Positions 6,380 to 28,821 are shown, numbered from the stretch's first letter. The stretch is DNA of 39,559 bases from a virus (IMGVR_UViG_3300014492_000004:1-39559), one strand, 5' to 3'. Numbers and translations are program-made. The notes: generated by a model not told the origin, from the letters alone.

Positions 6380-6450
6380 CGCGCGCCGAGTACGTCGCGG
6401 AGAAAGCGGAACAGACTACTGCTTCACCGTCGGCCCCGCCTGCACTGTAG
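6376..6450 (+). CDS. Possible 24-residue peptide at operon end
   Basis: ATG 6376 overlaps the previous stop and reads 24 codons to TAG 6448-6450. The end overlaps the 3' end of the opposing beta-helix gene by 35 bases, so the two arms converge tail to tail here. No clear bidirectional terminator is visible at the junction. Confidence 0.25.
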   Translation: MTRAEYVAEKAEQTTASPSAPPAL

Positions 6451-7888
6451 GCCCAGATCGTACGCCACCGGAGGGAGGGGGGACGTACTGATAGGCTCCG
6501 ATGTCCCAGGGGCCGGAGGAGGGGCGCGAGATGCCTGCTAGGTCGCTGTCCAACGGGATGATACTTAGGGGGGTCAGGTTCTGTGCTGCCCCAATAGCCG
6601 GAGATCCTACCCCTAGCGTATATACCCCAGTCAGAAGCGGGTTTAGCACGATACTATGCGAACCCTCCGTCGCATCGTTACCCCCCGCTGCATACCAGTC
6701 GTTATAGTCGCTTAGGGAGATTGTCCCAGCCGAATTGTAATAGGCCAAAGAGCACTGAGATCCCGTATTGTTTTCTCCCGCCAGTACAGCTCCTTGATTC
6801 ATGATGCAGCGACCTTTTGAGGAAGGCTGATAAACGAAGGTATTGTTGTAGATGCTGACAGCCGGGTTTCCTCCGTTGGCCTTGGCGATTATTTGGGCAT
6901 TCGATGGCGCGTCTATTGTCGAAGAATTTACGAAAAGGTTGTTGAAGACGACCGTTCCGTCATAGGAAGCGTGGGAGCCACTACCGTTGCCCTCTGAATC
7001 GAGGAAAATATTTCCGGTCATGAATACACCGACATCCCCATAAAAGTAGTTACTGTAAACCTGAAGGCCCGCAATCCACGCCGTGTCATTGTTGATGATT
7101 ACGAATACTCCATTGTGGTGAAAATCGTTCTGGGCTGGATTGTCCCAATTTGCCCAATCGTGACAGACATTGTTATGGATCAGCATTCCAGTTGAACTGG
7201 AAGATGCGTTGCGGTCGGAGGTTGTAAAGCACCAGTTATTGTTGTAGCCAAGGTTATGGTCAATCTCTCCACCGGACTGAGTGTTTAAGTAATCAATAGA
7301 AATCCCCTGCTTCATATCGTGAACCATAGAATTGGTCACACGGTCATTGCTCCCCCAGAGATGTATCCCGTCTCCAAAACCATTTGAATCGTTGGTGGTC
7401 TTGACGTATAGATTGATGGCAGCCAAATTCTTCACAATGGAGTTGTTCGTTGGCTGTCCACAGACTGCATCGGTATCGACGGTGGCGTTGTTTGTGCTAT
7501 TGACGTTCGTATTGGCGACGTACCCATTGTAATTTGTGGGGCTGATCGACCCGGCTGTACCCCCGTCAACTACCACCCAATCGAAGTTGGAGAAATTTAC
7601 AACACATACAGTACCCCAAGAGGCTTGGGACATGCTTGCCCCAGGCTCGAATATGAGCTGCGTGGGGTTGCCGCTCGCACCGCTTGCTCCGATGCTGACT
7701 TGGCTCGTTATGTTCCCGCACAGATGCACGTTGTTGCCAGCGCCCCAATCGGATGAGGACAAGGATGAAACGGCCCGAGCGTTAGCGCAGTTAGTCCCGG
7801 TGTTGCTGCCAGCCGAGGTCTGGGCCACATACGCGTCGGCAGCGAATGATAAATAAGACGAAACTACTAGAAGTAGGATACACCGCAT
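6416..7888 (-). CDS. Signal-peptide right-handed beta-helix protein
   Basis: The 490-residue protein has an N-terminal Sec signal (MRCILLLVVSSYLSFA, likely cut after ADA near residue 19). The body is asparagine/glycine-rich with repeated short strands typical of a parallel beta-helix: DGIHLWGSNDRVTNSMVHDM, IHNNVCHDW, VYSNYFYGDVGVFMTGN and FNNLFVNSS. The C-terminal DIGAYQY resembles the DIGAYEY end of secreted beta-helix proteins. It is the last gene of the late arm, after two other appendage-like genes. A polysaccharide-binding or -cleaving role is likely; catalytic residues cannot be assigned. Whether it is virion-borne or exported alone is open. Confidence 0.75.
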   Translation of the reverse strand: MRCILLLVVSSYLSFAADAYVAQTSAGSNTGTNCANARAVSSLSSSDWGAGNNVHLCGNITSQVSIGASGASGNPTQLIFEPGASMSQASWGTVCVVNFSNFDWVVVDGGTAGSISPTNYNGYVANTNVNSTNNATVDTDAVCGQPTNNSIVKNLAAINLYVKTTNDSNGFGDGIHLWGSNDRVTNSMVHDMKQGISIDYLNTQSGGEIDHNLGYNNNWCFTTSDRNASSSSTGMLIHNNVCHDWANWDNPAQNDFHHNGVFVIINNDTAWIAGLQVYSNYFYGDVGVFMTGNIFLDSEGNGSGSHASYDGTVVFNNLFVNSSTIDAPSNAQIIAKANGGNPAVSIYNNTFVYQPSSKGRCIMNQGAVLAGENNTGSQCSLAYYNSAGTISLSDYNDWYAAGGNDATEGSHSIVLNPLLTGVYTLGVGSPAIGAAQNLTPLSIIPLDSDLAGISRPSSGPWDIGAYQYVPPPSGGVRSGPTVQAGPTVKQ

Positions 7889-7892
7889 CGTG

Positions 7893-8639
7893 CTACTGCC
7901 CCTTGATCGCTACGGAAGCGCCGCACCAGTCGGTCGTAGATGCTGGATTGGTGGCTGTTACCGCGTAATTTCCGGCTGAAGTTGCAGACAGGTTATACCC
8001 TTCAGAGGAAATATAACCAGCATCCGCATAGATGGAAACCCAAGGGGTTGTATAAGTCTGAGTCCCGGAGGTTGAAAAATCCGTCCACCCTGCCAGCAGA
8101 AATTCGTTCCCTTTTGAGACAGACAGAGAAGTCAAACTCATCGCGGAGGTTGCGCTTCCCGTGTTACATCCCTCCGAGTGTACGTCTACTAGGGGAGTTG
8201 TGACGTTGTGCAGTTGTATCGCCGTAAGTCCTTTGTGGGTGAGCGCAGAACTAATTGTAAGTGTGACAAGATCTGTAGAATTTAGAGCCGTCACGGGAGC
8301 CGTAAACATCTCAACATATGACCCGCCAGATTTACCAGCTAAGGACACCCCGGTGAATACGTTCCCCGCGGTGTCTGAAACTGAGCCGGTGACCCCCGCG
8401 CTAAAGTCCCAATACGCAAACACGACAATCGCATCACCTGTCACCAGAGTGTCAAAGTGCCCTGTGGATATACACGTAGTGCCGCTGGCATTGCAGGTTA
8501 GATTAGCCACCGTGTACGCACCCACCCACGACGGCTGATTTGTCCATTTAGCCACCGTCGAGAATGGCAGCGTTGGCACATACTGCGGCCAGAACATCAG
8601 CAGCAGGTGAGCGAGGAATTTGGAGATGAGAGGTGTCAT
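7893..8639 (-). CDS. Beta-rich appendage or exported protein
   Basis: The 248-residue protein is read from ATG 8639, which overlaps the stop of the upstream fibre gene and lies seven bases after GGAGGG. The first 30 residues are hydrophobic (LISKFLAHLLLMFWPQYV) and could be an uncleaved anchor or a poor signal peptide. The rest is Ser/Thr/Gly-rich beta sequence (GDAIVVFAYWDF, NVFTGVSLAGKSGGSYVEMF, WCGASVAIKG). This looks like one or two jelly-roll or Ig-like domains, as in carbohydrate-binding phage proteins. Function is inferred only from composition and context. Confidence 0.62.
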   Translation of the reverse strand: MTPLISKFLAHLLLMFWPQYVPTLPFSTVAKWTNQPSWVGAYTVANLTCNASGTTCISTGHFDTLVTGDAIVVFAYWDFSAGVTGSVSDTAGNVFTGVSLAGKSGGSYVEMFTAPVTALNSTDLVTLTISSALTHKGLTAIQLHNVTTPLVDVHSEGCNTGSATSAMSLTSLSVSKGNEFLLAGWTDFSTSGTQTYTTPWVSIYADAGYISSEGYNLSATSAGNYAVTATNPASTTDWCGASVAIKGQ

Positions 8640-10168
8640 CGCACTACCCTCCAATTAATGGTTAAAGCTCCAGGGGTGATAATCCCGGTGCTCCAGTTAC
8701 ACACATCGAAGTTAACATTGCCACTGGTCGGATAGGCCGCGATACTGAGACCTCCCGTTGTCGCTGGGACATAGCCCGTAACCGCCTTGATTGACGCATT
8801 GGGGTTCCAGATTATCGAATCGGTCGAGACTACGTTTGTTGCTGTGGTCGTGACGACCGTAGCACAGGCTGTAGAAGCGATGGAGGAAGTACCAAGGGCT
8901 GATGTCCCGCTGGCGATGGTCGTGGTGAGGCCACCTGCCGCCGATAGGTTGTTACCGATGGCTGTCACTACCCCCGTGCCGGTGGTCGTAGTGGCTGATG
9001 CTTGACTCCCCGATCCAATAACCACTGCACCACTCGTTAATGATGCGGCACTGGTTACGCACGTAGTACAGGTGATTGTGCCCGTTGCTGTGATCGTGCC
9101 GCCACCGATTGGTCCAGTCGTGGCAATGCTAGTTACTGTGCCGGTAGGTAGCGCTCCCCCGTCCTGCAATAGGCTACCGTTCGTTCCGTTGAATGTCGCG
9201 ACGTGCCCGCTTGTTGCGCTTGCAGGTCCCATCACAACCGGGATGCTGCCGCCCGATGTCATCCACTCAGGACCGGAGAGAGTCGATAGCGCACACAGGA
9301 ATCCAGCGCCAGCCGGGACTGTGCCAGAGCATGTTCCCGTCCCAAATCCATCCAGACCTGCCGTACCCGTGAACCATGCAGACGCTGGAGGGCTAGTGCC
9401 TGTGGACACGCTGGTCGCGGTCGCTGCGCCGAGAACTGGGGCCACCAGGGTTTTATTCGATAATGTCTGCGTGGCAGTCGTGCCCACAACCTGCTGTGCA
9501 ATCGCTGCGGGGTCGTAGGTGGACGTGTTCATGTTGCCGCTGCCTGAACCGCCGCCGATAGTCGCCCAAGTACAAGAACCGCCAGAGCATGCGCAGCCGG
9601 ACAGCTGCCCGGCGCCCGTTCCAGTTCCGTTGTTGAAGTTGAGCGGTTGTGGCGGCACGCAAACCCCACTCGGGTTAGTCGTCACATTCACCAGCGCCGT
9701 GGTCACCTGCGTTCCCGTGTAGGGATTCGGAACGAGGTAAATGAGCACCTGGCCCGTAGCGCTGGCTACGGACTGCCCGCTGACATTCAGCGTCAAAGTG
9801 CCGCTCAAAATCTGCGGTGGGCTGATGAGCGATACCTTAGATGTCGTGGAACTGAGAGTGCTCCCCGCGCCGGCCAACACGTCAACCGATGCCGTGTTCG
9901 TCACAGTGACGCTGTAGCCGTTTGTGGGGGCCGTCGTCGCGCCGGGGATGAATTCGCCCTCATAGATTAGATAGCCTTGAAGTTGGGCCTGTTGGATGAG
10001 CGCCGCGGCCGCCGTGGCTGGTACGGACCCCGTGGAAGCATCTCCGGTCCACGCATAGGTGAGCACCCACACGGGTACTGCCGTAGGCGTGAGGGGCGCC
10101 AGCGTGACGTTTACGGTGCCAGCGGCGAAGGCGCACGAGGACATCAGGAACAGAAGGAGTTTTTTCAT
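8636..10168 (-). CDS. Tail fibre with Sec signal peptide
   Basis: The 510-residue protein begins with MKKLLLFLMSSCAFA, a canonical signal peptide cut before AGTVNV. Residues 20-165 match, at lower identity, the N-terminal domain of both tailspikes: WVLTYAWTGDAS, GYSVTVTNTASVDVLAGA, GTLTLNVSGQSVASATG. Two phage-fibre hallmarks follow: TATQTLSNKTLVAPVLGAAT (about 231-250) and GHVATFNGTNGSLLQDGG. The C-terminal half is Ser/Thr/Gly-rich beta fibre. The signal peptide on a protein with fibre repeats is unusual. It overlaps the next gene by ATGA. Confidence 0.78.
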   Translation of the reverse strand: MKKLLLFLMSSCAFAAGTVNVTLAPLTPTAVPVWVLTYAWTGDASTGSVPATAAAALIQQAQLQGYLIYEGEFIPGATTAPTNGYSVTVTNTASVDVLAGAGSTLSSTTSKVSLISPPQILSGTLTLNVSGQSVASATGQVLIYLVPNPYTGTQVTTALVNVTTNPSGVCVPPQPLNFNNGTGTGAGQLSGCACSGGSCTWATIGGGSGSGNMNTSTYDPAAIAQQVVGTTATQTLSNKTLVAPVLGAATATSVSTGTSPPASAWFTGTAGLDGFGTGTCSGTVPAGAGFLCALSTLSGPEWMTSGGSIPVVMGPASATSGHVATFNGTNGSLLQDGGALPTGTVTSIATTGPIGGGTITATGTITCTTCVTSAASLTSGAVVIGSGSQASATTTTGTGVVTAIGNNLSAAGGLTTTIASGTSALGTSSIASTACATVVTTTATNVVSTDSIIWNPNASIKAVTGYVPATTGGLSIAAYPTSGNVNFDVCNWSTGIITPGALTINWRVVR

Positions 10169-10213
10169 TTTGGGACGCCTCCGGTCAATTGGGATTGCAC
10201 GTCTTTGGCGAGC

Positions 10214-10300
10214 TTAGTCAGCGCCGCAGCGGAACCAAGCGCGTCTACGCCACCAGAATGCGGAGGTGGCTACCATGGTCAAGATTGTTAGTATTTTCAT
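10214..10300 (-). CDS. 28-residue membrane peptide
   Basis: ATG 10300 overlaps the stop of the upstream ejection-protein gene (ATGA), with AGGA just ahead. The peptide has a short hydrophobic segment (ILTILTMVATSAFWW) followed by RRRAWFR, giving an inward-positive single-span or surface helix. It could be a coupling peptide or a tiny lysis regulator. The evidence is the overlap and composition only. Confidence 0.4.
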   Translation of the reverse strand: MKILTILTMVATSAFWWRRRAWFRCGAD

Positions 10301-11805
10301 TTTCCTGTCACTTTTGGTGCCGATTTCCACATATTGTCCAAGTATTCTCTGAGCATTAACATCGTTTCCGGCGATCGCAGAGAGGCTGGGGATACCCCGG
10401 CAGAAACCGAGACTCTGTCCATCATGTCCGGGCTCAGCTTATCTACGTCCTCTGTGGTCATGCCGGCACGTTTGAACTGCGTGGCCATAGTCTTTGCCCA
10501 GCGCCCACGGTTTCCCCCTACGATATCTTCGACCTTCGAACCTTGTGCGATGTCCGAAGATGGACTGGCATCCTCTCTTGCTATTCCCATATTATCTGCC
10601 GCCTGGTTGCGGTACTTGGCGCGGCGCTGTTCGGCAGAGGCGAGCTTGTCAAGATCATTCAGAGTGCCGGACTGCTGCATCTCGTCTTTGAGTGCCTGTG
10701 CCAGCGTGGCCGGATTTTGCGCAGTGGTGACTTGCGCTTCAGCCGGCGCCGCTTGTGCCCCCTGTGATGCCGGCTCAGGTGGCGGTGGGGCGGCGGCGGC
10801 CGCTGGCGCTACGGGGCTCGGTTGCGGCGCGGGGGCTTCCGGTTGCTGTGCGATCTTCCGCACGAGCGCCTGCTGATCTGCGGTGAGTATTTGGAAATTC
10901 TTCGCGCCGAGGGATTTCGCGATGGCGTTCAAGTGCGCGACGTCTTCCACCGGAGCCGCGGCGGCTGTCTGCGGGACGACATCATCAGCGGTCATCGGGA
11001 CTTGGGTATCGGCTGCAAACCCTGGGCCGGCAATATTCGGGCCAATCGGCGCGGCCCGCGGCGTGGGCGGCGGCTGCTGGAAGTCCGCGAAATCCGCGGC
11101 GGTGGCAATATTGGGCGCCACCTCCGGCACCATCGCGTCCCGGTACGCTTTCACGCCCTTGGTGATTCCCGCGCCGATCTGCCGCACTGCCGGGTACTGC
11201 ACCCCGATCCGCACCGGCCATTCCATGCCAGGAACTACTTTGGACAGAGCTTCGCCAGCGAGAGCCTTTCCAGCGCCGGCCGCCACATCCCCTCCGCCGG
11301 CCCGGATTCCCGCTCCCACGGCACCCGCCGCGTCCGTCTCCCCGAGCGCGGGCAGCATCGCCATTCCTGCGGTGCCAACGAGCCGGCCCGCAGCTCCCGC
11401 GTAGTTTCCCTCCGAGGCATCCTGGACCGCTGGCGCAACGGCTGCCCCGGCTAATCTACCCACAGGTCCCTCTGTTGTATACTTGGCCGCCAGCATGGCC
11501 GCTTCCTTCATTTTCCCCTTGCTGGCAAAATCCGCGATCTGCTTGAGATCTTCCACGCCAATGCCTTGCTTTAGCATGCCCGAGATGGTGTCCAGCGGGT
11601 GCATGATCGCTTGCCCGATTCCGCCGAGCGTGGATTCGTACAAGCCGGTACCGAACCGCGAAGCAGCGCCTCCCCCTTTGTCCCCGGATTTCTGCGCAGA
11701 CAGCCACTCTTGCGGGTCCTGGAGCGTTGGAGATGGTCCAGAGCCTCCGTTCGCCCGTAGCCACTGCTGCGGGTCTGTGAGCGTGATTTGCTGAGGATCG
11801 GCCAT
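10297..11805 (-). CDS. Large ejection or internal virion protein
   Basis: The 502-residue protein starts at ATG 11805, overlapping the upstream stop. It has an N-terminal pair of DPQ-W repeats (LTDPQQWLRANG and LQDPQEWLSAQK). A long glycine/alanine segment (100-200) with several apolar stretches could insert in membranes. A Pro/Ala/Gln linker (about 295-355) and a helical C-terminus complete it. Composition and place, after two other Ala/Gln-rich genes behind the hub gene, match the P22 gp7-gp20-gp16 ejection set, with this one as the gp16-like candidate. The assignment is by synteny, not clear homology. Confidence 0.6.
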   Translation of the reverse strand: MADPQQITLTDPQQWLRANGGSGPSPTLQDPQEWLSAQKSGDKGGGAASRFGTGLYESTLGGIGQAIMHPLDTISGMLKQGIGVEDLKQIADFASKGKMKEAAMLAAKYTTEGPVGRLAGAAVAPAVQDASEGNYAGAAGRLVGTAGMAMLPALGETDAAGAVGAGIRAGGGDVAAGAGKALAGEALSKVVPGMEWPVRIGVQYPAVRQIGAGITKGVKAYRDAMVPEVAPNIATAADFADFQQPPPTPRAAPIGPNIAGPGFAADTQVPMTADDVVPQTAAAAPVEDVAHLNAIAKSLGAKNFQILTADQQALVRKIAQQPEAPAPQPSPVAPAAAAAPPPPEPASQGAQAAPAEAQVTTAQNPATLAQALKDEMQQSGTLNDLDKLASAEQRRAKYRNQAADNMGIAREDASPSSDIAQGSKVEDIVGGNRGRWAKTMATQFKRAGMTTEDVDKLSPDMMDRVSVSAGVSPASLRSPETMLMLREYLDNMWKSAPKVTGK

Positions 11806-17854: not shown

Positions 17855-17855
17855 G

Positions 17856-18154: not shown

Positions 18155-18823
18155 CTACTCGACCCCTTCAGCCGGCGGCGTCGGCGCGTTGGCCGGAACT
18201 CCCGGCGGCTGCACAAGCGCCTGACCAGCCGTACCTGGAATCGGGACGCGATTAGGCACTGGGAAGGCCGCGGCGCGCGCCTCCTTGGCATCCGCGACGA
18301 GCGAGGCGGAAGGCGTAACTCCGAACCAACCGGCGATCTCAATGCCCATCGCGGTCTTGAGAGCGCGCGCCACTCCTGCGGGCAGCGTCAGCGCCGTGGT
18401 AGCGTCCACGAACTGCGGAACGCTGGATCCTGTGAACGTCGGGGCCGTGAACGACGCGGCCGTGTAAGTCGGAGGCGTGAAGGTGCCCTCGGTGTAAGTT
18501 CCGCCCGAAAGCGTAAATGCAGTGGCCAGAGGAGACGCAAAAAGATTCTGCTCGGAAAGGGTCACGGAACCGTCTTTTGCTTGGCGGGTAACGAGGGGGG
18601 CCGCCTCACGCGACATCTTATCTATCAGGAGCTGGAGCGCTTTGCTCTGCTCGTTTATCAGGATCTGAACGGCCATGGTTTGCTCGTTCGTCCAGTTCGC
18701 CAGCAGATCGTTGGCAATTGCGAGGCAGTCGGTGATTTGCTGGGAGGAAAGGGCTTCCCCTGAGTCCAGGACGGTCAGCCATTGGGCCGCCGCCGTCGCA
18801 ACTTGCGTGAGGCTATAGGACAC
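18155..18823 (-). CDS. Second adaptor-like protein
   Basis: The 222-residue protein starts at GTG 18823 after AAAGGG. Its layout parallels the gp4-like protein: an N-terminal helical part (LSSQQITDCLAIANDLLANW), a hydrophobic turn (FASPLATAFTLSGGTYTEGT), a Thr/Pro strand region, and a PAGVARALKTAMGIEIAGWF helix. The last segment corresponds in position to PPGYERMIRKNLAVNIAPMM in the other adaptor. It may be a portal-proximal connector. Similarity to the other adaptor is by layout, not strong identity. Confidence 0.55.
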   Translation of the reverse strand: MSYSLTQVATAAAQWLTVLDSGEALSSQQITDCLAIANDLLANWTNEQTMAVQILINEQSKALQLLIDKMSREAAPLVTRQAKDGSVTLSEQNLFASPLATAFTLSGGTYTEGTFTPPTYTAASFTAPTFTGSSVPQFVDATTALTLPAGVARALKTAMGIEIAGWFGVTPSASLVADAKEARAAAFPVPNRVPIPGTAGQALVQPPGVPANAPTPPAEGVE

Positions 18824-18843
18824 AGGTTAGGCCCTTTCTGACA

Positions 18844-19443
18844 CTACGCGGTAACGGGTTCTTCCTTGCGCTTCCCGCTCCCGCCCTTGGAGTCCAGCGC
18901 GCGGTTGGCTTGCTCCAGTGCACCCCGGAGCCGCGCAATCTCTTCGTTGGGGTCGACGTATTCCGCTTCAGGGAGAGGCGCGATTTCATCGAGTCTGTCC
19001 ACCCAAGGGCCACATCCGACCGGGGGCTTCTGCGCCTTGAGTTTCTTTTCGTCCTCGGCAGTCTTGACCAGCCGCTCCTCGACGAAAGCATTGTTGATTA
19101 TTGTCGGGGAAGCCACTTCCATGCGCTCGGCAAATTTGTCTGCCATGTTGCGCCGGAAGACGTACTTCGGGTGGGTTTTCAGGATGTACTTTTCCTGATA
19201 TCCCATCGCGACCAACGCCGTTTCTTCCTCTTCCTTGTACGCCTGGCGCATTTCCAGCTCGGCGTGGTACATGTCCTTCGGGTACCCGTTGTTCTTGGAA
19301 CGCATCATCTCGTGCAGGCGGATGCCGAGAATGACTGGGTTTTTGGTCTTCGGGGCTTCGCGAGCATCGCGAAGGAATCGGTCGCACTCCGCTTGGCTCA
19401 TGGTCTGTTGGCCGGTTGGCCGCATCTCGAATCCTTCGGACAT
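18844..19443 (-). CDS. Hypothetical virion-region protein
   Basis: This 199-residue protein starts at ATG 19443, overlapping the upstream stop (TAATG) with AAGGAGG ahead. It is helical and charged through residues 10-110 (QAECDRFLRDAREAPKTKNP, EMRQAYKEEEETALVAMGYQ). It then has a proline-containing middle (KPPVGCGPWVDRL) and a coiled-coil end (NEEIARLRGALEQANRALDS). The position between coat and adaptor genes suggests head completion or assembly. No family is recognised. Confidence 0.62.
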   Translation of the reverse strand: MSEGFEMRPTGQQTMSQAECDRFLRDAREAPKTKNPVILGIRLHEMMRSKNNGYPKDMYHAELEMRQAYKEEEETALVAMGYQEKYILKTHPKYVFRRNMADKFAERMEVASPTIINNAFVEERLVKTAEDEKKLKAQKPPVGCGPWVDRLDEIAPLPEAEYVDPNEEIARLRGALEQANRALDSKGGSGKRKEEPVTA

Positions 19444-19772
19444 TACAGAACCTCCTTTTTGACCATCGTCGGGCCAAGATCAACTTTGGTCCCAGTTCGC
19501 GGGAATGGGCCGGAGAGAGTTTCAGGGTCGAACTTCCAACCATCGGCCAGCATTACCTTTTGCTCGTCTTCGTTTCCCGCTACCTGGTGAACGTGCTTGG
19601 GGAACTCCTGTGGGATGTACTCTAACCCGTAGCCGGTTGGATTGCCGTCCTTGTCGAACATGGCTTCGCGCACCGCGGGTTCGCCGTAAACGATCTTGGG
19701 CGGGAGGGTCGCATGGTACAGATGGACTTCTTTGGTTGCTATTCCTTGGGGCATTCTCTTCTTGCCTTTCAT
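19443..19772 (-). CDS. Hypothetical virion-region protein
   Basis: I use ATG 19772 (109 residues: MKGKKRMPQGIATKEVHLYH...); an in-frame TTG at 19814 would add 14 residues but lacks a ribosome site. The sequence is soluble and beta-leaning (LPPKIVYGEPAVREAMFD, GYGLEYIPQEFPKHVHQV, EQKVMLADGWKFDPETL). A nine-base-pair hairpin containing GGAGG lies immediately before the ATG, which would limit ribosome access. The gene is coupled to its downstream neighbour by TAATG. It may be a decoration or head-completion protein. Confidence 0.58.
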   Translation of the reverse strand: MKGKKRMPQGIATKEVHLYHATLPPKIVYGEPAVREAMFDKDGNPTGYGLEYIPQEFPKHVHQVAGNEDEQKVMLADGWKFDPETLSGPFPRTGTKVDLGPTMVKKEVL

Positions 19773-19795
19773 GGAGGCCGGGATAACCGGCCTCC
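19773..19795 (-). promoter_or_regulatory. Perfect hairpin sequestering GGAGG before ATG 19772
   Basis: On the minus strand GGAGGCCGG (from 19795) pairs perfectly with CCGGCCTCC around the loop TTATC and is followed at once by ATG. It could hide the ribosome site, end transcription partially, or protect the upstream message. There is no T-run after it, so a simple intrinsic terminator is less likely. Confidence 0.5.
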
Positions 19796-19815
19796 CTTTG
19801 ATCTCGAAGTGCAAA

Positions 19816-20862
19816 CTAGTAAACCATCATGAACGGCCCGTACAGCGTGGTGAACGTTGTAGTGGGCGTAATCGCGGTTACGGTGCCGAAAACGCCAGCG
19901 GCTTTTTTGACCGTACCCATGAGAGTCGGCGCGCCGCCTGTTTTGTAGGCGGTGAACGTGTCTGTCGTCCCGTTGCCTTGCAACCCGATGAAATAGGTGG
20001 CCGGGCCAACGAGATTGACTGTAGCGGTCCATGCGGCGCACTGGTATAGCGATGCGCCCGAGGTGGTGACGCCAGCTAGGGCAGTAGTGGCGACGACCGC
20101 GCCGGTGGCATCCCAAATAGCGAAAAGCCACTTGTCCGTTCCGACCGTGGCGCCGTTGAGCACGCACGCGCCGGTAGAGGTAAAGGAATTGGGAATTTGG
20201 ATTTGGGTAGCCCATTCCACGCCCGCGATATCCGTTACCGCAGTGCCGGCGATGCTGTTGGAAAGCGTGGTAAAGGCCGTGTACGGGTTCACGTTCGTTA
20301 CGGGACCTTGAGCTTCCCCAAGAGTCGTTGTGGACCAATACCCGGACACGCAATTAGCCAAACCACCGGAGAAATCCGAGTTATTCGGCCCGTAGACGAT
20401 GACGGGCAGGGAATACTGTACGGAAGCGGTACAAGTGCCGCTAGGCACGTTCGGGGTAAAAATGCCACCGGAGAACGGGTGCGAGTTATCGCCGCTCCCG
20501 GTTGCAACGTTTCCGACCCATAAAGTAGCGTTGACGGAGTGGCCGTAATTCGCCGAAGTCCCAAGCTGCCCGCGCTTGACGTTGTAGCAGGTGCTGGAAG
20601 ATCCGGCGGAAACTACTTGCGCGACCTCCTTGTCCACGAACAAGTAAGAGCCGACAGCGTTCGCCGAGAGAGACGGCAGGACTACGCCGGTCGCCGAAGT
20701 CAGGCACCATTGGCTCTGGCTGGCTACATTTCCGCCGCCTGCCAGAACAGCCACGGAAAGGGTAGTACTGGTGGTGGTCAACTGCGCTTGCGCCGGGACG
20801 ATTCCGAGCAAAGCCGCTGCCACCAGAGATGCGATTCGAATTAAGTTTTTCATGATGTTCAT
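19816..20862 (-). CDS. Exported protein next to coat gene
   Basis: The 348-residue protein is read from ATG 20862, seven bases after AGGAG; an internal ATG follows three codons later. It starts with a clear Sec signal (MKNLIRIASLVAAALLGIVPAQA, cut before QLTTTS). The mature part is Thr/Ser/Gly-rich beta sequence with seven or so cysteines (SSSTCYNVKRGQLG, VPSGTCTASVQYSLP, SLYQCAAWTATVNLV), which suits disulphides formed outside the cytoplasm. It lies 22 bases after the coat gene, where decoration proteins are common. The signal peptide argues for export instead, or for an unusual assembly route. Confidence 0.72.
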   Translation of the reverse strand: MNIMKNLIRIASLVAAALLGIVPAQAQLTTTSTTLSVAVLAGGGNVASQSQWCLTSATGVVLPSLSANAVGSYLFVDKEVAQVVSAGSSSTCYNVKRGQLGTSANYGHSVNATLWVGNVATGSGDNSHPFSGGIFTPNVPSGTCTASVQYSLPVIVYGPNNSDFSGGLANCVSGYWSTTTLGEAQGPVTNVNPYTAFTTLSNSIAGTAVTDIAGVEWATQIQIPNSFTSTGACVLNGATVGTDKWLFAIWDATGAVVATTALAGVTTSGASLYQCAAWTATVNLVGPATYFIGLQGNGTTDTFTAYKTGGAPTLMGTVKKAAGVFGTVTAITPTTTFTTLYGPFMMVY

Positions 20863-20884
20863 GGTTTTTCTCCTGTCGGCGTCG

Positions 20885-22147
20885 TTAGCTGATTGCGATG
20901 CGGACAGATCCCTCCGAGTACAGCGGGGCGATGCCATAATAGACATCGGTGCGGTTGGTGAACATGTCGCGCACGGAATCGAACATGCGGACGAAACGGA
21001 TGGAGACGCCGATCTCTTTGGACCGCGCTTCCATCGCCATGTCGACGCCTTCCGGCACGTCTCCGGGGAAGGACACGAAGGCATGCGCCTGGCGAGTCCA
21101 TAAGATGCCCTGTGCGGTGGACACGCCAGCAAGTGCGGATTGTCCGCCCGCCGCGGTGTTGTAGACGTTAACCAGGGCGCCAGCTCCCGGCGAGTTGGTA
21201 ACGTTCTGGAACTGTCCGGAAGGAACGATGGCCGGCAGGATCTGGACCGTCCCGGTACCGCCCGCGCTGGTCATGTTCTGCTGAACGACGAACTGCTGAA
21301 GCGCACCGGTCGACGTGCGGTTCTGCGGGTTTACCGCGAACACTCCGGCGAAGCTGATAATGTCGCCAACCAAGAAGTAGTTGGTTACACTTCCGAGCCC
21401 GTTGAGGTTGATAGCGGAACCGGTCTGGCCACCGCCGACTACCGCGGGAGTGCCTCCGAGTGCGCCGATTACCTGCACCGGGGCGTTCTGGTCTACCATC
21501 CAGTCGAGAGACAAGGCGTTGTCAATCTGCCCGGTCTTCCACTGTTTAGTGAGAGAATCCTTGGGATTGTAGAACTGTTTGGTGTAGGTGTTCCAACCAG
21601 TTCGCGCGTTGGAGTTGATGACCAAGTTACGGGCGCGGCGGAATTTCGCCTTGTCCAGGGGGAAGCCCATCTCATCGAGCTTTTGGGAAGCCTGCGAATA
21701 GATGTTGAAGGCGTCCGTACCGCCCAGTCCCGGCGTGGTGCCTGGGGTTCCGACGAAGTTCGCCGTGTTTATCATCATCGTATTGAGCGCCCTGAAATCC
21801 AGCAGGTTGCTCAACGCGGTCATGTACGGGTCAAGGTATCGGTCCTGGAAGTCGTCGAGGCTGAGAAACTTTTCCGAGGTCGAAAACTCGAAGTCGATAC
21901 CCGACTGTTGATTGATGGTTACCGGAACTTCCGTGTCTATCATCGCCTGCGGGGAGTATGCCTGCCCGTCGCGCGCGATCGCTCGTGGCGGCTTGCGGAC
22001 AAATATCGTATCTCCGATCTTGCCGCCCTTCTTGCCAAACTCCTGGTCTAGGTCGCGGTACATGTTCGGCACCACAACGCAATTGTTTTCCAGGACTTCC
22101 AGTTTGGCGTAGGTGATTTCCTGCCGCGTCAAATACTGGTTTGCCAA
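20885..22147 (-). CDS. Major capsid protein, P22 coat family
   Basis: The 420-residue protein is read from TTG 22147, seven bases after AGAGGG. The N-terminal ITYAKLEVLENNCVVVPNMY and KKGGKIGDTIFVRKPPRA resemble the P22 gp5 HK97-fold entry region. Residues about 240-340 form the inserted I-domain: VGDIISFAGVFAVNPQNR, LQQFVVQQNM, VQILPAIVPSGQFQNVTNSP. The end includes AHAFVSFPGDVPEGVDM and IRFVRMFDSVRDM. It forms the icosahedral head with the scaffold encoded just upstream. A hairpin with a GUGA loop precedes its ribosome site. Confidence 0.88.
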   Translation of the reverse strand: MANQYLTRQEITYAKLEVLENNCVVVPNMYRDLDQEFGKKGGKIGDTIFVRKPPRAIARDGQAYSPQAMIDTEVPVTINQQSGIDFEFSTSEKFLSLDDFQDRYLDPYMTALSNLLDFRALNTMMINTANFVGTPGTTPGLGGTDAFNIYSQASQKLDEMGFPLDKAKFRRARNLVINSNARTGWNTYTKQFYNPKDSLTKQWKTGQIDNALSLDWMVDQNAPVQVIGALGGTPAVVGGGQTGSAINLNGLGSVTNYFLVGDIISFAGVFAVNPQNRTSTGALQQFVVQQNMTSAGGTGTVQILPAIVPSGQFQNVTNSPGAGALVNVYNTAAGGQSALAGVSTAQGILWTRQAHAFVSFPGDVPEGVDMAMEARSKEIGVSIRFVRMFDSVRDMFTNRTDVYYGIAPLYSEGSVRIAIS

Positions 22148-22177: not shown

Positions 22178-23140
22178 TTATCCGTGGCGAATCTTTTTGA
22201 ATTCTTCGAAATCGTCGGCTTCGGCAGTGCTCTTTTTGGGAGGCGGCTCGATACCGTTCAGTTGCCGGCCAGGGGGCGCGGCCTTCGACACGGGGGTCCG
22301 TAACTTTTCAGGAGGAGTGTCGGATCGGCCGGCGGCCGGAGTGCGCAGCGTGTACCCGATTATGGCCATTTGCATGAGCCGTGCATCGTCGCTGGCCAGC
22401 CCGCGAATCCTATCTGCCTCGGCGGGGTTTCCGGCCAGGTGATAGTAGACGTCGGCAGCGTTGTCGATCTCCAAGAGAGCCTTTTGTATATTCGGGAGGG
22501 ATAGCCCGACAGCCAGATTTCCGGCCTTTTCATCGAAGTCCGCATATTTCGCGCGGGCTTCTACCATTCGCCGGGTAATGGTCTGTTTGGTGGTTTCCTG
22601 AGCGACGCGCTGCTTTTCAACAGCGGACCTCTGCTCGATCTTCCACCCGGCGCGATCCACGAGATAATCCTCGTACATCTTGCCTGGTGCCGATCCGTCG
22701 TAATCCTTGGCTTTCGGCCCATCGTCGGCTTGCGCAGTTGCTGGGGCGGCCTGAGTTGCTGGCGCGGCGGCTGCTGGCTCGGTTGCCGGTTTGCGAGTCC
22801 GGTATTCCTGCAATTCTTTTTCGAGCTTGTCGAAGCGTTCGTTGGACTGCTGCTCCCAGGTCTTACGGAGGATCGCGTCGGCCTCCCCGTGCTTCCCGTT
22901 GGCGCGTAACTGCGCGATGCGGGATTCAAGGGTGCGCTCTCCCTTTGGCTTCTCTTCTTTTTCCTGAGTTTTGGGTTTCGCGGTTTCCGAATCCGCGACA
23001 GTTTCGGATGCCTTTGCGCTGGCGGGCGAGGGCGGCTCTTTGGGTTCGGCGGCCGGTTCCGACGCTTTGCGATGCTGTTCCCGCAGAGCTTTGAACTCTT
23101 CGGGGCTGGACGCTTCGCTAAGCGGCTTCAGTTCTTCCAT
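22178..23140 (-). CDS. Scaffolding protein
   Basis: The 320-residue protein is read from ATG 23140, five bases after GGAG; a GTG two codons earlier is possible. It is highly charged and low-complexity for its first 150 residues (EPAAEPKEPPSPASAKASET, KTQEKEEKPKGERTLESRIA). Helices follow (KTWEQQSNERFDKLEKELQE). The C-terminus is DDFEEFKKIRHG, recalling the basic coat-binding helix at the end of P22 gp8. Directly upstream of the coat gene, it fits the internal scaffold. It is the first gene after a promoter and a noncoding stretch. Confidence 0.82.
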   Translation of the reverse strand: MEELKPLSEASSPEEFKALREQHRKASEPAAEPKEPPSPASAKASETVADSETAKPKTQEKEEKPKGERTLESRIAQLRANGKHGEADAILRKTWEQQSNERFDKLEKELQEYRTRKPATEPAAAAPATQAAPATAQADDGPKAKDYDGSAPGKMYEDYLVDRAGWKIEQRSAVEKQRVAQETTKQTITRRMVEARAKYADFDEKAGNLAVGLSLPNIQKALLEIDNAADVYYHLAGNPAEADRIRGLASDDARLMQMAIIGYTLRTPAAGRSDTPPEKLRTPVSKAAPPGRQLNGIEPPPKKSTAEADDFEEFKKIRHG

Positions 23141-23151
23141 TTTCACTCCGC

Positions 23152-23165
23152 GCGTCTCACGACGC
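23152..23165 (-). promoter_or_regulatory. GNRA-loop hairpin ahead of scaffold gene
   Basis: The minus-strand RNA reads GCGUC-GUGA-GACGC, ending three bases before the GGAG ribosome site of the scaffold gene. The stem sequence is the same as in the hairpin ahead of the gp7-like gene. Confidence 0.55.
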
Positions 23166-23204
23166 TCGACTCACCTTTTTAACGAGTTGGCGGTCTCAGT
23201 GGGA

Positions 23205-23231
23205 ATAATAGCACAATTCTGGAAACGTCAA
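23205..23231 (-). promoter_or_regulatory. Late promoter for scaffold-coat unit
   Basis: On the minus strand TTGACG (23231-23226) and TATTAT (23210-23205) are 15 bases apart, with TGC directly before the -10 (TGCTATTAT, an extended -10). The same GTGCTATTAT block occurs at about 32626 and 36450. Transcription would begin about 58 bases before the scaffold ATG. Confidence 0.6.
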
Positions 23232-23674
23232 ATGGGAGGGAGATTTATTCGAGACCATAGGAGGCGCATTCCCTGCTCATATTCATGCACAAGGAGGATT
23301 ATCTGCTGGAACTGCCCCGTGGTCTCCTACTGCCTTATGGTGCGCCTCTCGGCGTGAGCTTCGACCGGGGCGTATGCGCCTGTGCTGCATCTACCAGCAG
23401 CCCGTTGCCCGGATTTCGACAGTATTCGACGGTTCGCTACAGTATGGGATTGCGACGGTTGATTAACGCTTGTGCCAGAGGCCCGTTGCACGCGGCGCAA
23501 GACTCCCGCCGCACCTCGAAGAGTGAGAGCAGAGGGATACTGCATTGATTTGGGCCTCGGATTGGATTGGGCTGTAATCATTCCCTCTGTCAAGGGTTGC
23601 GGTTGGGCGAGTGTGACAGCACCCGCCCTGGGGACCGCAAAAGGTTTCGAACGAATTCAGGATATCACAAACGC
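23232..23674. other. Noncoding stretch between tailspike and scaffold units
   Basis: I see no gene I can support here. Open frames exist on both strands but have odd composition and no convincing ribosome site. The minus strand has imperfect repeats (AACCGTCG and ATACTGT pairs near 23425-23475) and a distant eight-base inverted repeat (CAGAGGGA with TCCCTCTG, about 23536-23604). It may be leader DNA, a small RNA gene or degraded sequence. Confidence 0.5.
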
Positions 23675-23717
23675 AAAAAGGCCGGAAGCCCATTTCTGGG
23701 AATCCGGCCTCTTTTCC
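23675..23717 (-). terminator. Intrinsic terminator after tailspike unit, possibly bidirectional
   Basis: The stem pairs AGGCCGGA (23679-23686) with TCCGGCCT (23703-23710), with an inner CCCA/TGGG pair around TTTC. On the minus strand it is followed by TTTTTGCG; on the plus strand by CTTTTCC. It ends the portal-tailspike transcript before the scaffold promoter. Confidence 0.8.
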
Positions 23718-23737
23718 TTCGTAAGAATGTGCGGGGC

Positions 23738-23806
23738 TTAACTCTTCGCGCTCGGCGTGGCTGCGGGCGGCGTGACCGCGCCAGCATAAAGACTACCTGC
23801 GATTGT
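23738..23806 (-). pseudogene. Possible remnant of a structural-protein C-terminus
   Basis: The minus strand reads TIAGSLYAGAVTPPAATPSA then KS and TAA, directly before the terminator and directly after an in-frame TAG at 23807-23809. The same frame upstream of the TAG reads YPLTWQPAEP. There is no proper start. It looks like the end of a lost gene, but it is short enough to be chance. Confidence 0.3.
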
Positions 23807-23870
23807 CTATGGCTCAGCCGGTTGCCATGTTAGTGGGTAACTCCTAAGGCTTTTTATTATTACATTAATA

Positions 23871-26222
23871 TTATTGACTCATATCCAACCATACAGAACC
23901 ATTATACAAAAGGGAAATTACTGATCCAGAGGGATAACCAGTAGCAATATTATTTGCCGGATTAAGATGGGATTTGATTGCTACTGCACTTCCTCCACCT
24001 AGAGCAAAGGTGTTCGCCCCAGCCTGGAGGGTGTGAGCCAGTAAGATCTGCACCTGCATACCTGTCACCGCTTGCTGAGACAGCAGTATCAGGCTGGAGA
24101 ATCTGCCAACTATAGCATTGTTGGCTCCTGTTTCGGACGCAATGAAATTGATCGCCGGGCTCTGGACGGTAGCCGCCGTCGAGAAATTTCCCAAGTAATC
24201 TATATATCCTTTAGCCGTATAAGCACAAGATGGGCAACCGCTTACGTAGCGCCATTGCCAATTGCCACCAACTGTATAATTGTCCGAGTAACGATTGCCG
24301 CCGTTCTCTGATTCGGTGGCTATATTAGTCCCGTCAGTAAGTGTCTCTAATCCGTTGATCTTAAAACCTACATAATTATTCGTGTAGTCCTGGTAAGCTC
24401 CTCGCAGACCTCCAGCAGGGAAAGATGTCTTCCATCCTTGTGTGGCGGACACGTAGTTGTAATTGTTTCCAGTTATGACGTGAAGATCATCTTGGGCGAT
24501 AGAGATAGCGGTCGAATATTGTCCGGGAACCTGCGCAAGAAACTGATTTCCTATTGCGATAAGCTGTGCAGATCCTCCTCCGGCCTGCCGAATATCGATG
24601 AATTTAGATCCGAATGAAGATAGGCCCGGTGGCGTTACGTGATTGTTCATGAGGCTGATAACTAGTTCATTCGTATTCACGTCGCTCGCTTGGACGAGAA
24701 ACGGGACCGTCCCTCCTAAAAGCATTCCATCCAGGGTAATATGAGTCAGCCCTGAAAAATCATTGTCGATGTATACCGGCGTGGCTGATACGGACGCAGA
24801 AATGTACCCTCCATGAACCGCGAGTAAGCCACGGCTGAAATAGATTGCATACGGAACGATGCTACCGCCTTCGCTGAAACTGGAGTTAGTAACGTCCACG
24901 AGATGATAGCCCGCGCCACTGAATGTGGAAGAGTCCATATTGATCCCCCAAGACTCGAAGTCCCACTGGGAGATTTTTGTAAAACTTCCGGTGCCGTCCG
25001 CTCCAGCTACGAAGTTGAAGCATTGATACAAATAGCAGAGACCTTGTTCAAATTTTTGATCGTCAGCCCGCCCTACCTGTATGCCCACAACGCCAGCGTT
25101 AAATAGCCAATTAGACCCGATGTTTCCGAAGGGCCACAGATGAATTGCCCGAAAATAATTAGAGTCCAAAGATCCGTCAATGGAGATTCCTATGTCGTAA
25201 GCTGAAATGTCCAGATTCTCAAAATGACTACGGCCCGTATAGGCTTGCCATGCGCTACTGGCATAAGTTCCTTTGTAGCTTATTCCGTCCCAAGCACTCA
25301 CAATCGCAACGTTTTGAACATTAGCATCCAGTGTGTCATTCAGGTTGAGACCTGTCCAATGGGCAAGCAGCGTGCGGTTGGCGACCCCGAAGTTTTGAGG
25401 GAATACAATTTGAAAGTCTCGGAAGGATGGGCCAGCGATATTTTCGACCGGCTGGCCGCTGGAGCCACAGTCGGTATTGAACACCGCCGCAGTTGGATCA
25501 CTAGATGTTTGAGGAAAAGATGTTGTAGGCGCAATTATACTTCCCCGTCCAATTCCCACAACACTAGAATATTGCCAATTGGAACAAAGTGTTATTTTAC
25601 TACTAACTTTAAACGAACCAATTGGAATAAGAATTTCACCATTAACAGCTTCTGCTGCAGTTGCTGCCGCTTGAATAGCAACTGTAGAGTCCGCCACTCC
25701 GGTCGGATCGGCTCCGTATGTGCGTACGTCGAAAACCGGAGGATTCGTCATCGTCACCCAATTTGCAGGTACCGAAAGCGGGCCAGTGAATCCGAGTATA
25801 GGAGTGGAGGAAAGAAACACAAATACGGTTCCCTGTGAGTTCGCGACGGAGTTTCCGGTAAGCACGAGGGAGAAATTTCCTTGAATCGGTGGGGCTAACG
25901 CCGAGAATGCTTGGGCGGTAGAACCCAGATTTACAGCTGCCCCGGCAAGCGCGTCCACGCCGGCCGAATCGGTAATCCTCACCGAATAACCGGCAGTTGG
26001 CGATGGCGTACCCGGTACCGTTTCTACCTGGGTGATGAAATACCCGTTGCAGCAACCTTGCAGTTTGGCTGGAGTCACAGGCACAGACCCATTGCTGCCG
26101 GCGGTCCAATTGAAGGCCAATACCCAATTGCCGGACGTGCCGAGTTGCGAGATGGTCTGCTGTACTCCGGCCGCGCCGAACGCCGTACCGGCTAGAAAGA
26201 CCGCGAGTAGTGCCTTCTTCAT
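23871..26222 (-). CDS. Tailspike with Sec signal peptide and beta-helix
   Basis: The 783-residue protein starts at ATG 26222 after AGGAGGT. It begins with signal peptide MKKALLAVFLAGTAFG, then an N-terminal domain (about 18-160) nearly identical at its start to the next spike (GVQQTISQLGTSGNWVLAFN). At about 165 comes the pectate-lyase-type phrase DVRTYGADPTGVADSTVAIQ, which opens a right-handed beta-helix spanning most of the chain (IDGSLDSNYFRAIHLWPFGN, VDVTNSSFSEGGSI). The C-terminus is a small beta domain. It probably binds and may cut host surface glycans. It is the last gene before the terminator and differs from the second spike after the shared N-terminus. Confidence 0.85.
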   Translation of the reverse strand: MKKALLAVFLAGTAFGAAGVQQTISQLGTSGNWVLAFNWTAGSNGSVPVTPAKLQGCCNGYFITQVETVPGTPSPTAGYSVRITDSAGVDALAGAAVNLGSTAQAFSALAPPIQGNFSLVLTGNSVANSQGTVFVFLSSTPILGFTGPLSVPANWVTMTNPPVFDVRTYGADPTGVADSTVAIQAAATAAEAVNGEILIPIGSFKVSSKITLCSNWQYSSVVGIGRGSIIAPTTSFPQTSSDPTAAVFNTDCGSSGQPVENIAGPSFRDFQIVFPQNFGVANRTLLAHWTGLNLNDTLDANVQNVAIVSAWDGISYKGTYASSAWQAYTGRSHFENLDISAYDIGISIDGSLDSNYFRAIHLWPFGNIGSNWLFNAGVVGIQVGRADDQKFEQGLCYLYQCFNFVAGADGTGSFTKISQWDFESWGINMDSSTFSGAGYHLVDVTNSSFSEGGSIVPYAIYFSRGLLAVHGGYISASVSATPVYIDNDFSGLTHITLDGMLLGGTVPFLVQASDVNTNELVISLMNNHVTPPGLSSFGSKFIDIRQAGGGSAQLIAIGNQFLAQVPGQYSTAISIAQDDLHVITGNNYNYVSATQGWKTSFPAGGLRGAYQDYTNNYVGFKINGLETLTDGTNIATESENGGNRYSDNYTVGGNWQWRYVSGCPSCAYTAKGYIDYLGNFSTAATVQSPAINFIASETGANNAIVGRFSSLILLSQQAVTGMQVQILLAHTLQAGANTFALGGGSAVAIKSHLNPANNIATGYPSGSVISLLYNGSVWLDMSQ

Positions 26223-26301
26223 TGAATACCTCCTGGCGCGGGCTGGAGTGCTGCCTGTTGCGCCATCTGCTGCTGGTGCTGCATCCCCGTGACGTGCTCC
26301 A
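26132..26301 (-). repeat. Duplicated portal-end/spike-start segment, copy 1
   Basis: This 170-base segment matches 28731-28900 with two mismatches (26192 and 26288). It covers the first 30 or so codons of the spike, its ribosome site and the last codons of a portal fragment. Similarity continues rightward for another roughly 107 bases, with more than 20 mismatches. Confidence 0.92.
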
Positions 26302-26425
26302 CCGCATCCGTGGCTTCCGCCAGGTGGGTAACAACCGCATCATGGCTGTGGTCCATTTGCTTCTCAATCATGGCCTTGATGAGCTTGATTTTCTCCACGT
26401 CCACCTTGAGTACCACTCGTTTCAT
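26219..26425 (-). CDS. Portal C-terminal fragment gene (duplicate)
   Basis: The 68 codons from ATG 26425 encode a protein matching the last 60 residues of the portal (KVDVEKIKLIKAMIEKQMDH ... GMQHQQQMAQQAALQPAPGG) with only three changes (I/L, K/R, A/S). Most of the DNA differences from the portal gene are at third codon positions, so the peptide was selected somewhere. It begins just after the second spike's stop and its own stop overlaps the first spike's ATG (ATGA). It may be a recombination scar from another phage's portal, or a kept leader that delivers ribosomes to the spike. A start at 26446 is also possible. Confidence 0.6.
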   Translation of the reverse strand: MKRVVLKVDVEKIKLIKAMIEKQMDHSHDAVVTHLAEATDAVEHVTGMQHQQQMAQQAALQPAPGGIQ

Positions 26426-26430
26426 TCGGC

Positions 26431-28821
26431 TCACCATGGATTGCAACTGTAAACGAAAAAATGGCCATTGGCCGATGTAAAAGCGTTGAAACTGGCAGAG
26501 GTGGCGCTGAACCCAACATTAGGTAGAAAGGTTCCAGTCGTGGTGTCAGTAAGCGTGCAAGCGTATCCTCTCGCCGACGGCAAATTCCCCAGAGTTAGCG
26601 TACAGGTAGACTGCCCGGACTGGAACGTCCCGGACTGACTGAGGGAGCTGTACCCAACATTGGTCACCGTCCCACATCCCCCGAAAGTCGGCGCTCCAAC
26701 CCCCGTAGGGATCAACTGGTAATACCCATTCAGCGCCACGAACGGCTTAGTGAATCCCCACCCGTTAAAGTAATTGTCGTTGACCCAATTGTTACTATCC
26801 CCGCCGCCTCCCGTGTCGAAGAGAATAGCGGTCCCGGTGTTGCTGCCGATCGGCGGGAAGTAGTTCCCTACCGCCATAACTTTACCGCCGTCATGGTTGT
26901 AGATGGCGGGTATCAGGTAGTTGGTCGATGTAGAAGAATTCAGAATAATGTTGTCGTTGAAAAGCAGATCTCCAGGGATTACATTGCTGACGATCTGCCA
27001 CGAGCCACCCTGCCCCAGAAGGAACGTTACATTGGTGATTCCCAAGACACCGTTGTTGGAGAATAGTGGAGTTTCAGTGGAAAATACCACCCCGGTTTGC
27101 GTGCCGGCGGTCGACGTAAGGGTGATGGATATGTTGGAATTCCACGTCTGGATGGTATAGGGTAGGCCATTTATCAGGACCTGCCCCCCCGCAGCAAGCC
27201 CGGCAAAGTTCAGCAACCCAGATACGTATGACACCGCCGTTCCGGCCGTATTTACAATTCCGGTGTTAATCGCGTTCGAGATCAACCCGGACGAAATATT
27301 CAGAGTCCCATTTACTGTGAGAGTCGCCACCTGGCCAAACCCCAGTTTCCACACTCCGCTTGCCACTGAAAGCTGACCACAGTTCAGCTTAATCACCCCA
27401 TTAGCCGTATCTACCATCAGGCTCGAAACTGTTGCAAAAGTACAACTTCCACGCCCGTATGTCGGGTCATACTCGAAGTCCATCGTCACGGGGAAATTGG
27501 AGTTTTTGAAATTGGTCATCGCGAGATCATACAGCCCCGCCGTCCATAGAGCTGTCCCATGGGCGCCCCAAATCTGACCTTGGTTCCCGGTCATGTCGTG
27601 CGGATAGAACTGGTAGTTAGACAACGTTTCTTCGTTGTCCGATCCGTTCATCACAATCCCGTAGTTGAAGGCGGAAATCTCGATATTTGACAGCCTCACC
27701 TGAGTGCCGATTTCGACGAAAACCCAATTGCCGCCTGACACTGGACTTGTGGTCCCGCTGCACCCTCCCGTGGCGCACACGTATGTGATGCTAGCAACGG
27801 AGGCGAAAGCCCCGGCTGCATACGTATTGCCAGAAACCCAAGCCGGGGCTACCCCGTTTGGATGGATGCTGATTCCGGTCATAGCCTGGGTGATCTTGAC
27901 GCTGTCAATGGAGGCATAGTCGCACCCATAATAATCACCGCAAGCAATTCCTGGAGGAAAGTTTACCAGTGAGGCGTAGTTGGTCGTATCCGTGTTCTGG
28001 AAACGGATAGAGATGTCTCGGACCTTAGGAACACCTGGGCACAGATCACTTGTAATGGGGCAATTTGCATCCATTGCGTAGTTCAATACAAGCACGCCAA
28101 CCGCCGACAGATTGAACGACGGCGGCACTAGTATTACAGATCCTTGCCCATCGAAGACGATCGACCCCGTGCCGATGCAGGCATCAGTGAATTTGTATGT
28201 GCCGTAGGGGAACAGTACCGTGCCATTACCCATGGCTTGCGCCGCGGCGGCCGCGGAGTTACACGCGACCGTCGAGGACGAGACACCCGTGGGATCGCCG
28301 CCGAACACCCTGATGTCTACCACCGGGGAATTCGTCAGACTCAACCAATTCGTAGCTGCGGTATTGATAGCGGCCACGTTGACAGTCCTCTGTTTGGCGA
28401 TAAAAACGTATACCGTACCGGTCGCACTGGGTACCGAATTACCGGACAGCGAAAGCGTGAACGTTCCCTGAATGGGAGCCGCCGTTGTCGCCGCCGAGAA
28501 TCCTTGAGACAAAGTGTTACTCAGGGAAGACGCGGCCGAACCAAGCATATCGACTCCGGCCGAGTCCAGGATCTTGACGGAATAGCCCACAGTGGGTGCC
28601 ACCGCCGCGCCTGGGACAGTTTCCACCTGCACGACGTAGTACCCGTTACAGCAGCCTTGGAGCTCCGCTACCGTATTCGGTACGTTCCCGCTTCCGTCTG
28701 CCGTCCAGTTGTAGGCGAGCACCCAATTCCCGGACGTGCCGAGTTGCGAGATGGTCTGCTGTACTCCGGCCGCGCCGAACGCCGTACCGGATAGAAAGAC
28801 CGCGAGTAGTGCCTTCTTCAT
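26431..28821 (-). CDS. Second tailspike with Sec signal peptide
   Basis: The 796-residue protein starts at ATG 28821, inside the portal stop. The N-terminus repeats that of the first spike (MKKALLAVFLSGTAFG signal, then GVQQTISQLGTSGNWVLAYN). At about 168 it has VDIRVFGGDPTGVSSSTV, which opens a beta-helix. The rest is unrelated in detail to the first spike. It contains a carbohydrate-binding-like insert with the phrase YVCATGGCSGTTSPVSGG (about 335-352). The C-terminal 60 residues (STCTLTLGNLPSARGYACTL ... HFFVYSCNPW) have paired cysteines. Two different receptor-binding spikes suggest a broader or variable host-surface range. Confidence 0.85.
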   Translation of the reverse strand: MKKALLAVFLSGTAFGAAGVQQTISQLGTSGNWVLAYNWTADGSGNVPNTVAELQGCCNGYYVVQVETVPGAAVAPTVGYSVKILDSAGVDMLGSAASSLSNTLSQGFSAATTAAPIQGTFTLSLSGNSVPSATGTVYVFIAKQRTVNVAAINTAATNWLSLTNSPVVDIRVFGGDPTGVSSSTVACNSAAAAAQAMGNGTVLFPYGTYKFTDACIGTGSIVFDGQGSVILVPPSFNLSAVGVLVLNYAMDANCPITSDLCPGVPKVRDISIRFQNTDTTNYASLVNFPPGIACGDYYGCDYASIDSVKITQAMTGISIHPNGVAPAWVSGNTYAAGAFASVASITYVCATGGCSGTTSPVSGGNWVFVEIGTQVRLSNIEISAFNYGIVMNGSDNEETLSNYQFYPHDMTGNQGQIWGAHGTALWTAGLYDLAMTNFKNSNFPVTMDFEYDPTYGRGSCTFATVSSLMVDTANGVIKLNCGQLSVASGVWKLGFGQVATLTVNGTLNISSGLISNAINTGIVNTAGTAVSYVSGLLNFAGLAAGGQVLINGLPYTIQTWNSNISITLTSTAGTQTGVVFSTETPLFSNNGVLGITNVTFLLGQGGSWQIVSNVIPGDLLFNDNIILNSSTSTNYLIPAIYNHDGGKVMAVGNYFPPIGSNTGTAILFDTGGGGDSNNWVNDNYFNGWGFTKPFVALNGYYQLIPTGVGAPTFGGCGTVTNVGYSSLSQSGTFQSGQSTCTLTLGNLPSARGYACTLTDTTTGTFLPNVGFSATSASFNAFTSANGHFFVYSCNPW

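Follow-up and report, generated by a model that had tools for sequence, protein, structure and literature searches.

Sec-type signal peptides and paired cysteines in putative virion appendages of a P22-like podovirus

The assembly of tailed phages is generally taken to be a cytoplasmic process. In phage P22, the tailspike and decoration proteins are cytoplasmic, and P22 tailspikes—together with several decoration proteins—can bind to finished heads in vitro. A high affinity for capsid-like particles is likewise reported for the T5 decoration protein pb10 (PMC10766600). Phage proteins that do pass through the host Sec system include endolysins (fOg44 Lys44 and the SAR endolysins; PMC6116005), the lambda membrane protein Lom (PMC12309495), and, among filamentous phages, the M13 virion protein pIII, which is described as carrying a signal sequence (PMC8310372). 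Benler et al. took a lack of signal peptides in their target proteins to favour an origin from phages (PMC6199706). In the literature searched, which covered few subscription journals, we found no tailed phage reported to send its virion appendages through Sec, and no tailed-phage precedent for the attachment of exported appendages across a membrane.

The sequence of interest (hereafter, the window) is the whole of a 39.6 kb IMG/VR virus record (39,559 nucleotides), representing a P22-like soil podovirus known from a metagenomic contig. Profile matches reveal a P22-type coat (PF11651, E 1.3e-21, above the cut-off) and portal (phrog_156, E 7e-82), and family searches add a head closure protein (Hc3), an ejection-type protein and an endolysin. 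A GroES-like co-chaperonin (phrog_3188) is encoded at 31380–31856 on the minus strand, and is annotated likewise in phages PBR31 and DSL-LC05. Among annotated phages, the best twenty coat matches (e.g., Xanthomonas phage PBR31) are 28–35% identical, and the hosts of phages with related coats are mainly Gram-negative bacteria. Closer coats are found in viral contigs: L002 and L003 (98% identity), L004 (81%), L009 (62–63%), L010 and L005 (61% each), and L006–L008 (54–55%). A broader coat alignment (A2) was too divergent for use in scans. One contig with a 99% identical coat (L091, PLUZ01000383.1) has been binned as Methylocapsa sp., and another relative, L092, as Bryobacterales. These two host hints conflict, and binning is weak evidence for phage contigs.

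An initial annotation of the window proposed that five genes of the structural arm begin with Sec-type signal peptides. All five open reading frames were recovered on the minus strand at their annotated positions (Table 1), and a rule-based caller—which, on 17 known signal peptides of E. coli, recovered 16—called a signal peptide at the start of each. A sixth signal peptide gene lies beside the terminase module; its signal is good, but there is no clear Shine-Dalgarno sequence at its ATG. Each of the six N-termini combines a positively charged n-region, a hydrophobic core, and small residues at positions -3 and -1. The ATG of all five original genes is preceded by a Shine-Dalgarno sequence (AGGAGG, CAGGAG, GGAGG or AGGGG). 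Translation from a later start that skips the hydrophobic segment, the counter-explanation raised at the outset, finds no candidate in these genes: none of the downstream in-frame starts within 70 codons has a Shine-Dalgarno sequence. The protein encoded at 7893–8639 is possibly exported as well.

Table 1. Features of the window. SP, signal peptide; a slash marks the predicted cut, accurate to within a few residues.
Feature	Coordinates	Strand	SP and N-terminus	Mature Cys	Remarks
Protein 3' of the fibre, 490 aa	6416..7888	-	~7841-7888; MRCILLLVVSSYLSFA/ADAY	8	
Protein between fibre and 6416, 248 aa	7893..8639	-	hydrophobic, not called SP		4 Cys
Fibre-like protein, 510 aa	8636..10168	-	~10124-10168; MKKLLLFLMSSCAFA/AGTV	10	shared N-terminal domain
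Capsid-decoration-like or head-fibre protein directly after coat gene, 348 aa	19816..20862	-	20785-20862 (cut PAQA/QLTT); MNIMKNLIRIASLVAAALLGIVPAQA/QLTT	6	
Major coat protein, P22 type	20885..22147	-			PF11651; reference for synteny and coat tree
Spike-like protein 2, 783 aa	23871..26222	-	~26172-26222; MKKALLAVFLAGTAFGA/AGVQ	8	shared N-terminal domain; PF12708
Spike-like protein 1, 796 aa	26431..28821	-	~28771-28821 (residues 1-17); MKKALLAVFLSGTAFGA/AGVQ	16	shared N-terminal domain ~18-140
Portal protein, P22 type	28818..30929	-	without SP		phrog_156
Tat-like signal fused to piece like coat insertion region	31856..32191	-	MKLSRRGLFGLFAGAAAAPLLA		38% over 61 aa, E 2e-10
Terminase-like protein	33700..35196	-			PHROG phrog_5902; served to fetch relatives
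Additional SP protein beside terminase module, 190 aa	35449..36021	-	~35938-36021 (AALA/QTTT)	2	

Signal peptides occur in these genomes at a frequency above chance: they were called in 41 of 1781 open reading frames from the window and fetched loci, versus 1 of 654 internal ATG positions with a Shine-Dalgarno sequence. Ten annotated phages with a P22 coat or P22 portal carry signal peptides in 3/303 open reading frames (two of the three being from Acetobacter phage phiAX1) and relatives of the window in 27/345, a contrast that is descriptive because the relatives were picked partly for the signal peptide on their post-coat gene. A Tat-like start is also seen in the window, fused to a piece resembling the insertion region of the coat (Table 1). 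In contig L017, the stretch 8909–9232 likewise opens with a Tat-like start, ahead of sequence that resembles a different part of the coat (IGDTIIVKKPVRF). Tat-like signals were not borne out as a general feature of the relatives checked.

Periplasmic proteins tend to have their cysteines in pairs. The number of cysteines in the mature chain is even in all six signal peptide proteins of the window, and their cysteine density is 1.67 per 100 residues, versus 0.40 in the tested virion, packaging and lysis-module proteins of the window that lack a signal peptide (p=6e-9). Across the window and fetched loci, even and odd mature counts stand at 26:3 for signal peptide proteins (a non-redundant set of complete proteins) versus 554:620 for the remainder (p=4e-6); inclusion of two odd fibres that the caller had missed, and that were found by hand, changes the former to 26:5 (p=7e-5). 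Parity is broken by large fibres, with nine mature cysteines in L010, five in L103, and 23 in L100 (the last from a GTG start). Given the even numbers in the mature chains, the signal peptides look functional, rather than being mere hydrophobic anchors.

The gene directly downstream of the coat gene provides a comparison within a single family. Homologues of this post-coat gene occur in synteny with the coat across many contigs; of 31 members, 22 have a signal peptide and nine do not. Two points of interest emerge from their alignment. Firstly, a conserved cysteine pair, C(T)A...NG.QWLC, is present in 22/22 members with a signal peptide—including the window's—and 0/9 members without (by alignment column the count is 21/22, the L120 pair being shifted by a gap). 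The number of mature cysteines is even in all 22. In L125, which lacks the pair, the cysteines can be seen to be replaced: it reads GAVTAV...NGNQWLRS, versus GACTAS...NGRQWLCS in L086. Secondly, the two groups differ in how they start. Members that carry it begin like MKKLTLLLIVAVLSALALPAVA/QTALTQTLLSAAV, with the mature chain QTALTQTTL, and members that lack it begin with MALTATTLAA (MALTATTL), MSTALTSTTLAA or MANPTQTTLSGA (also given as MSTALTSTTL and MANPTQTTL). In the family alignment, the latter starts coincide with the mature N-terminus of the former chains. The presence of the signal peptide changed at least three times on the post-coat family tree (two changes are forced by well-supported branches), and at least four times on a 20-row coat tree. 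Three phylogenetically independent contrasts are all concordant, a number too small for a significant sign test. In L009, a contig with 63% coat identity to the window, the post-coat protein has neither a signal peptide nor a cysteine, despite the contig bearing signal peptide proteins elsewhere. L100, from the same phage as L009, has signal peptide-like starts on two large fibre-like proteins (4192–7524 and 7529–8473).

The initial annotation had left three options open: (i) export, with attachment taking place in the envelope or once the cell has lysed, (ii) action at the cell surface, and (iii) service of the hydrophobic segment as a virion anchor. The third can now be weighed. If the segment were an uncleaved membrane tether or anchor, kept on the assembled protein, then its co-inheritance with the shared N-terminal domain of the spikes in the window and L002 would be expected. 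However, the segments diverge in sequence yet keep their charge, hydrophobic core and A-x-A/Q site, the homologues without the segment begin at the cut, and the cysteine pair tracks the signal peptide. An anchor is therefore disfavoured—the segment is unconserved in sequence, follows n-, h- and c-region logic up to an A-x-A/Q-like cut, and is absent from homologues—and we consider it distinctly improbable. Export of the signal peptide proteins, on the other hand, is strongly supported by the sequence evidence, because of the cysteine parity, the co-occurrence of signal peptide and cysteine pair, and the homologues that start at the mature N-terminus. This evidence fits both late attachment and action at the cell surface.

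What the post-coat protein may do is suggested by its predicted fold. The AlphaFold model is of moderate confidence (mean pLDDT 62.6); its C-terminal part resembles cyanophage A4 capsid chain 9jwb_Z (Z 14.4 over 181 residues), and its N-terminal module VP1 capsid chain 9in6_M (Z 9.5), the JBD30 baseplate and other tail proteins. Homologues with and without signal peptides match PHROG tail and virion families; a tblastn search of the window and L009 proteins against annotated phages returned no match. The modelled fold matches virion domains, and the position beside the coat gene fits, which makes a role in capsid decoration or as a head fibre probable; a decoration protein would bind to the capsid from outside.

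The remaining appendage candidates are linked by their N-termini. As proposed initially, the fibre-like protein and both spike-like proteins share one N-terminal domain (~120 residues; phmmer E 7e-14 to 3e-72), which also lies behind a signal peptide in L002 and L010. Searches with spike-like protein 1 and the shared domain identified no viral contigs beyond these two, and the sole convincing match in other phages is in Methanosarcina virus MetMV (E 3e-4). In MetMV, an archaeal virus, the related sequence is a separate protein of 141 residues without a signal peptide (L099, 2986–3411). Evidence for phage-type bodies, proposed initially for the fibre and spikes, is strongest for spike-like protein 2, which has a beta-helix body (PF12708 pectate-lyase, residues 164–354, 34.9 bits, cut-off 27) and matches PHROG tail spike phrog_2234 (E 7e-5), and for the post-coat protein, by its fold and the PHROG matches of its homologues. 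The fibre-like protein matched no family, and PF12708 is found in spike-like protein 2 only; spike-like protein 1 has no family match of its own, and matches spike-like protein 2 by phmmer (E 2.8e-72). A structure model of the spike was poor outside residues 18–140 (pLDDT 37.7), and its fold matches, among them cement proteins of Pam1, KHP30/40 and GP4, all have Z below 8 and were not taken as evidence. A 300-nt direct repeat (85%; 26011–26310 and 28610–28909), in which the 3' end of the portal gene and the 5' end of the spike gene are duplicated, makes it probable that tandem duplication gave rise to both spikes.

Family searches with the 6416–7888 and 8636–10168 proteins gave no match, as would be the case if the signal peptide genes were captured from host exoproteins, or joined to the contig by misassembly, and had no relation to the particle. 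Yet a second contig of 23.6 kb has the same gene order and signal peptides, the post-coat signal peptide gene keeps its synteny with the coat across many contigs, and a single N-terminal domain unites three of the window proteins; capture or misassembly is thus a very unlikely explanation.

A more serious competitor is that the proteins are exported without becoming part of the virion: released depolymerases, receptor blockers or anti-superinfection coats would act at or outside the surface of the infected cell. The signal peptide and cysteine evidence fits this too, as do the pectate-lyase-like domain in spike-like protein 2 and a signal peptide-bearing protein annotated as a glucanotransferase in the structural module of phiAX1. 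Moreover, Lom and other phage proteins known to be exported by Sec have their role in the host envelope (PMC12309495). Against this, the post-coat gene has homologues without signal peptides in the same position, and a capsid-chain-like fold; the N-terminal domain common to the fibre and spikes is related to the separate MetMV protein, which has no signal peptide; and signal peptide proteins of the relatives match PHROG families of tail fibres (collagen-like ones included), tail proteins and head closure Hc3. We therefore regard export to a non-virion role as unlikely. What favours attachment to the particle is the post-coat protein, with its fold like that of a capsid protein and the position of its gene.

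We lean slightly towards an explanation in which late virion appendages are exported through Sec, disulfide-bonded in the periplasm, and joined to finished heads at lysis. In this explanation, (i) the decoration or head-fibre protein, the two candidate beta-helix spikes and the fibre would be made as preproteins, (ii) these would be exported via the host Sec system and lose their signal peptides, (iii) disulfide bonds would form in the periplasm, (iv) heads would be assembled and filled in the cytoplasm from coat, portal and head proteins that lack signal peptides, and (v) the appendages would bind to completed heads once lysis breaches the inner membrane. The sequence itself shows intact signal peptides with their ribosome sites, cysteine pairing linked to them, and counterparts without them; Sec export, cleavage, disulfide formation, incorporation into the particle, and when and where attachment happens are what we infer. 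Export need not apply to every appendage, since L092 has signal peptide proteins and yet encodes a spike-like protein (18951–20849) without one. The boldest reading has, in our estimation, about an even chance of being correct: a lineage of tailed phages would assemble its particle in two compartments, with heads forming in the cytoplasm and the disulfide-stabilized parts (decoration proteins, spikes and fibres) in the periplasm until lysis brings them together, and with repeated joint gain or loss of signal peptide and disulfide pair in one virion gene.

The paired orthologues with and without signal peptides make two-compartment assembly testable. The most accessible test case is phiAX1 (L113), in which two structural-module proteins bear signal peptides (18458–19423 and 19427–21352, with four and six mature cysteines, respectively); the annotated start of the second lies downstream of its signal peptide. 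The phage is reported to come from an inducible strain, Acetobacter sp. ATCC 21760, its genome being predicted as an incomplete prophage (PMC8566455), and the main text of that source yielded no virion data for the two proteins. If true, two-compartment assembly would alter how virion proteins are recognized in metagenomes, provide an explanation for disulfides in phage appendages, and pose a direct question for phage biology: how do exported parts locate heads?

The window can be set beside four known systems. It shares with P22-like podoviruses (PF11651 coat, phrog_156 portal) its coat, portal, head-closure-like and ejection-type proteins, but differs in its signal peptides, which the ten annotated phages almost entirely lack. 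The post-coat protein may resemble capsid decoration proteins in its fold, as predicted by the moderate-confidence model with its matches to capsid chains 9jwb_Z and 9in6_M, and in the position of its gene beside the coat; it differs in having a signal peptide and a disulfide-type cysteine pair, the known decoration proteins being, to our knowledge, not described as exported. Sec-exported endolysins and Lom are, as proposed for the window proteins, late phage proteins that use the host Sec system, but their site of action is the host envelope and they form no part of the virion, unlike what is proposed for the window appendages. Finally, the coat proteins of filamentous phages are virion proteins of a different kind of particle: they are unrelated to those of the window, and the particle is extruded at the inner membrane.
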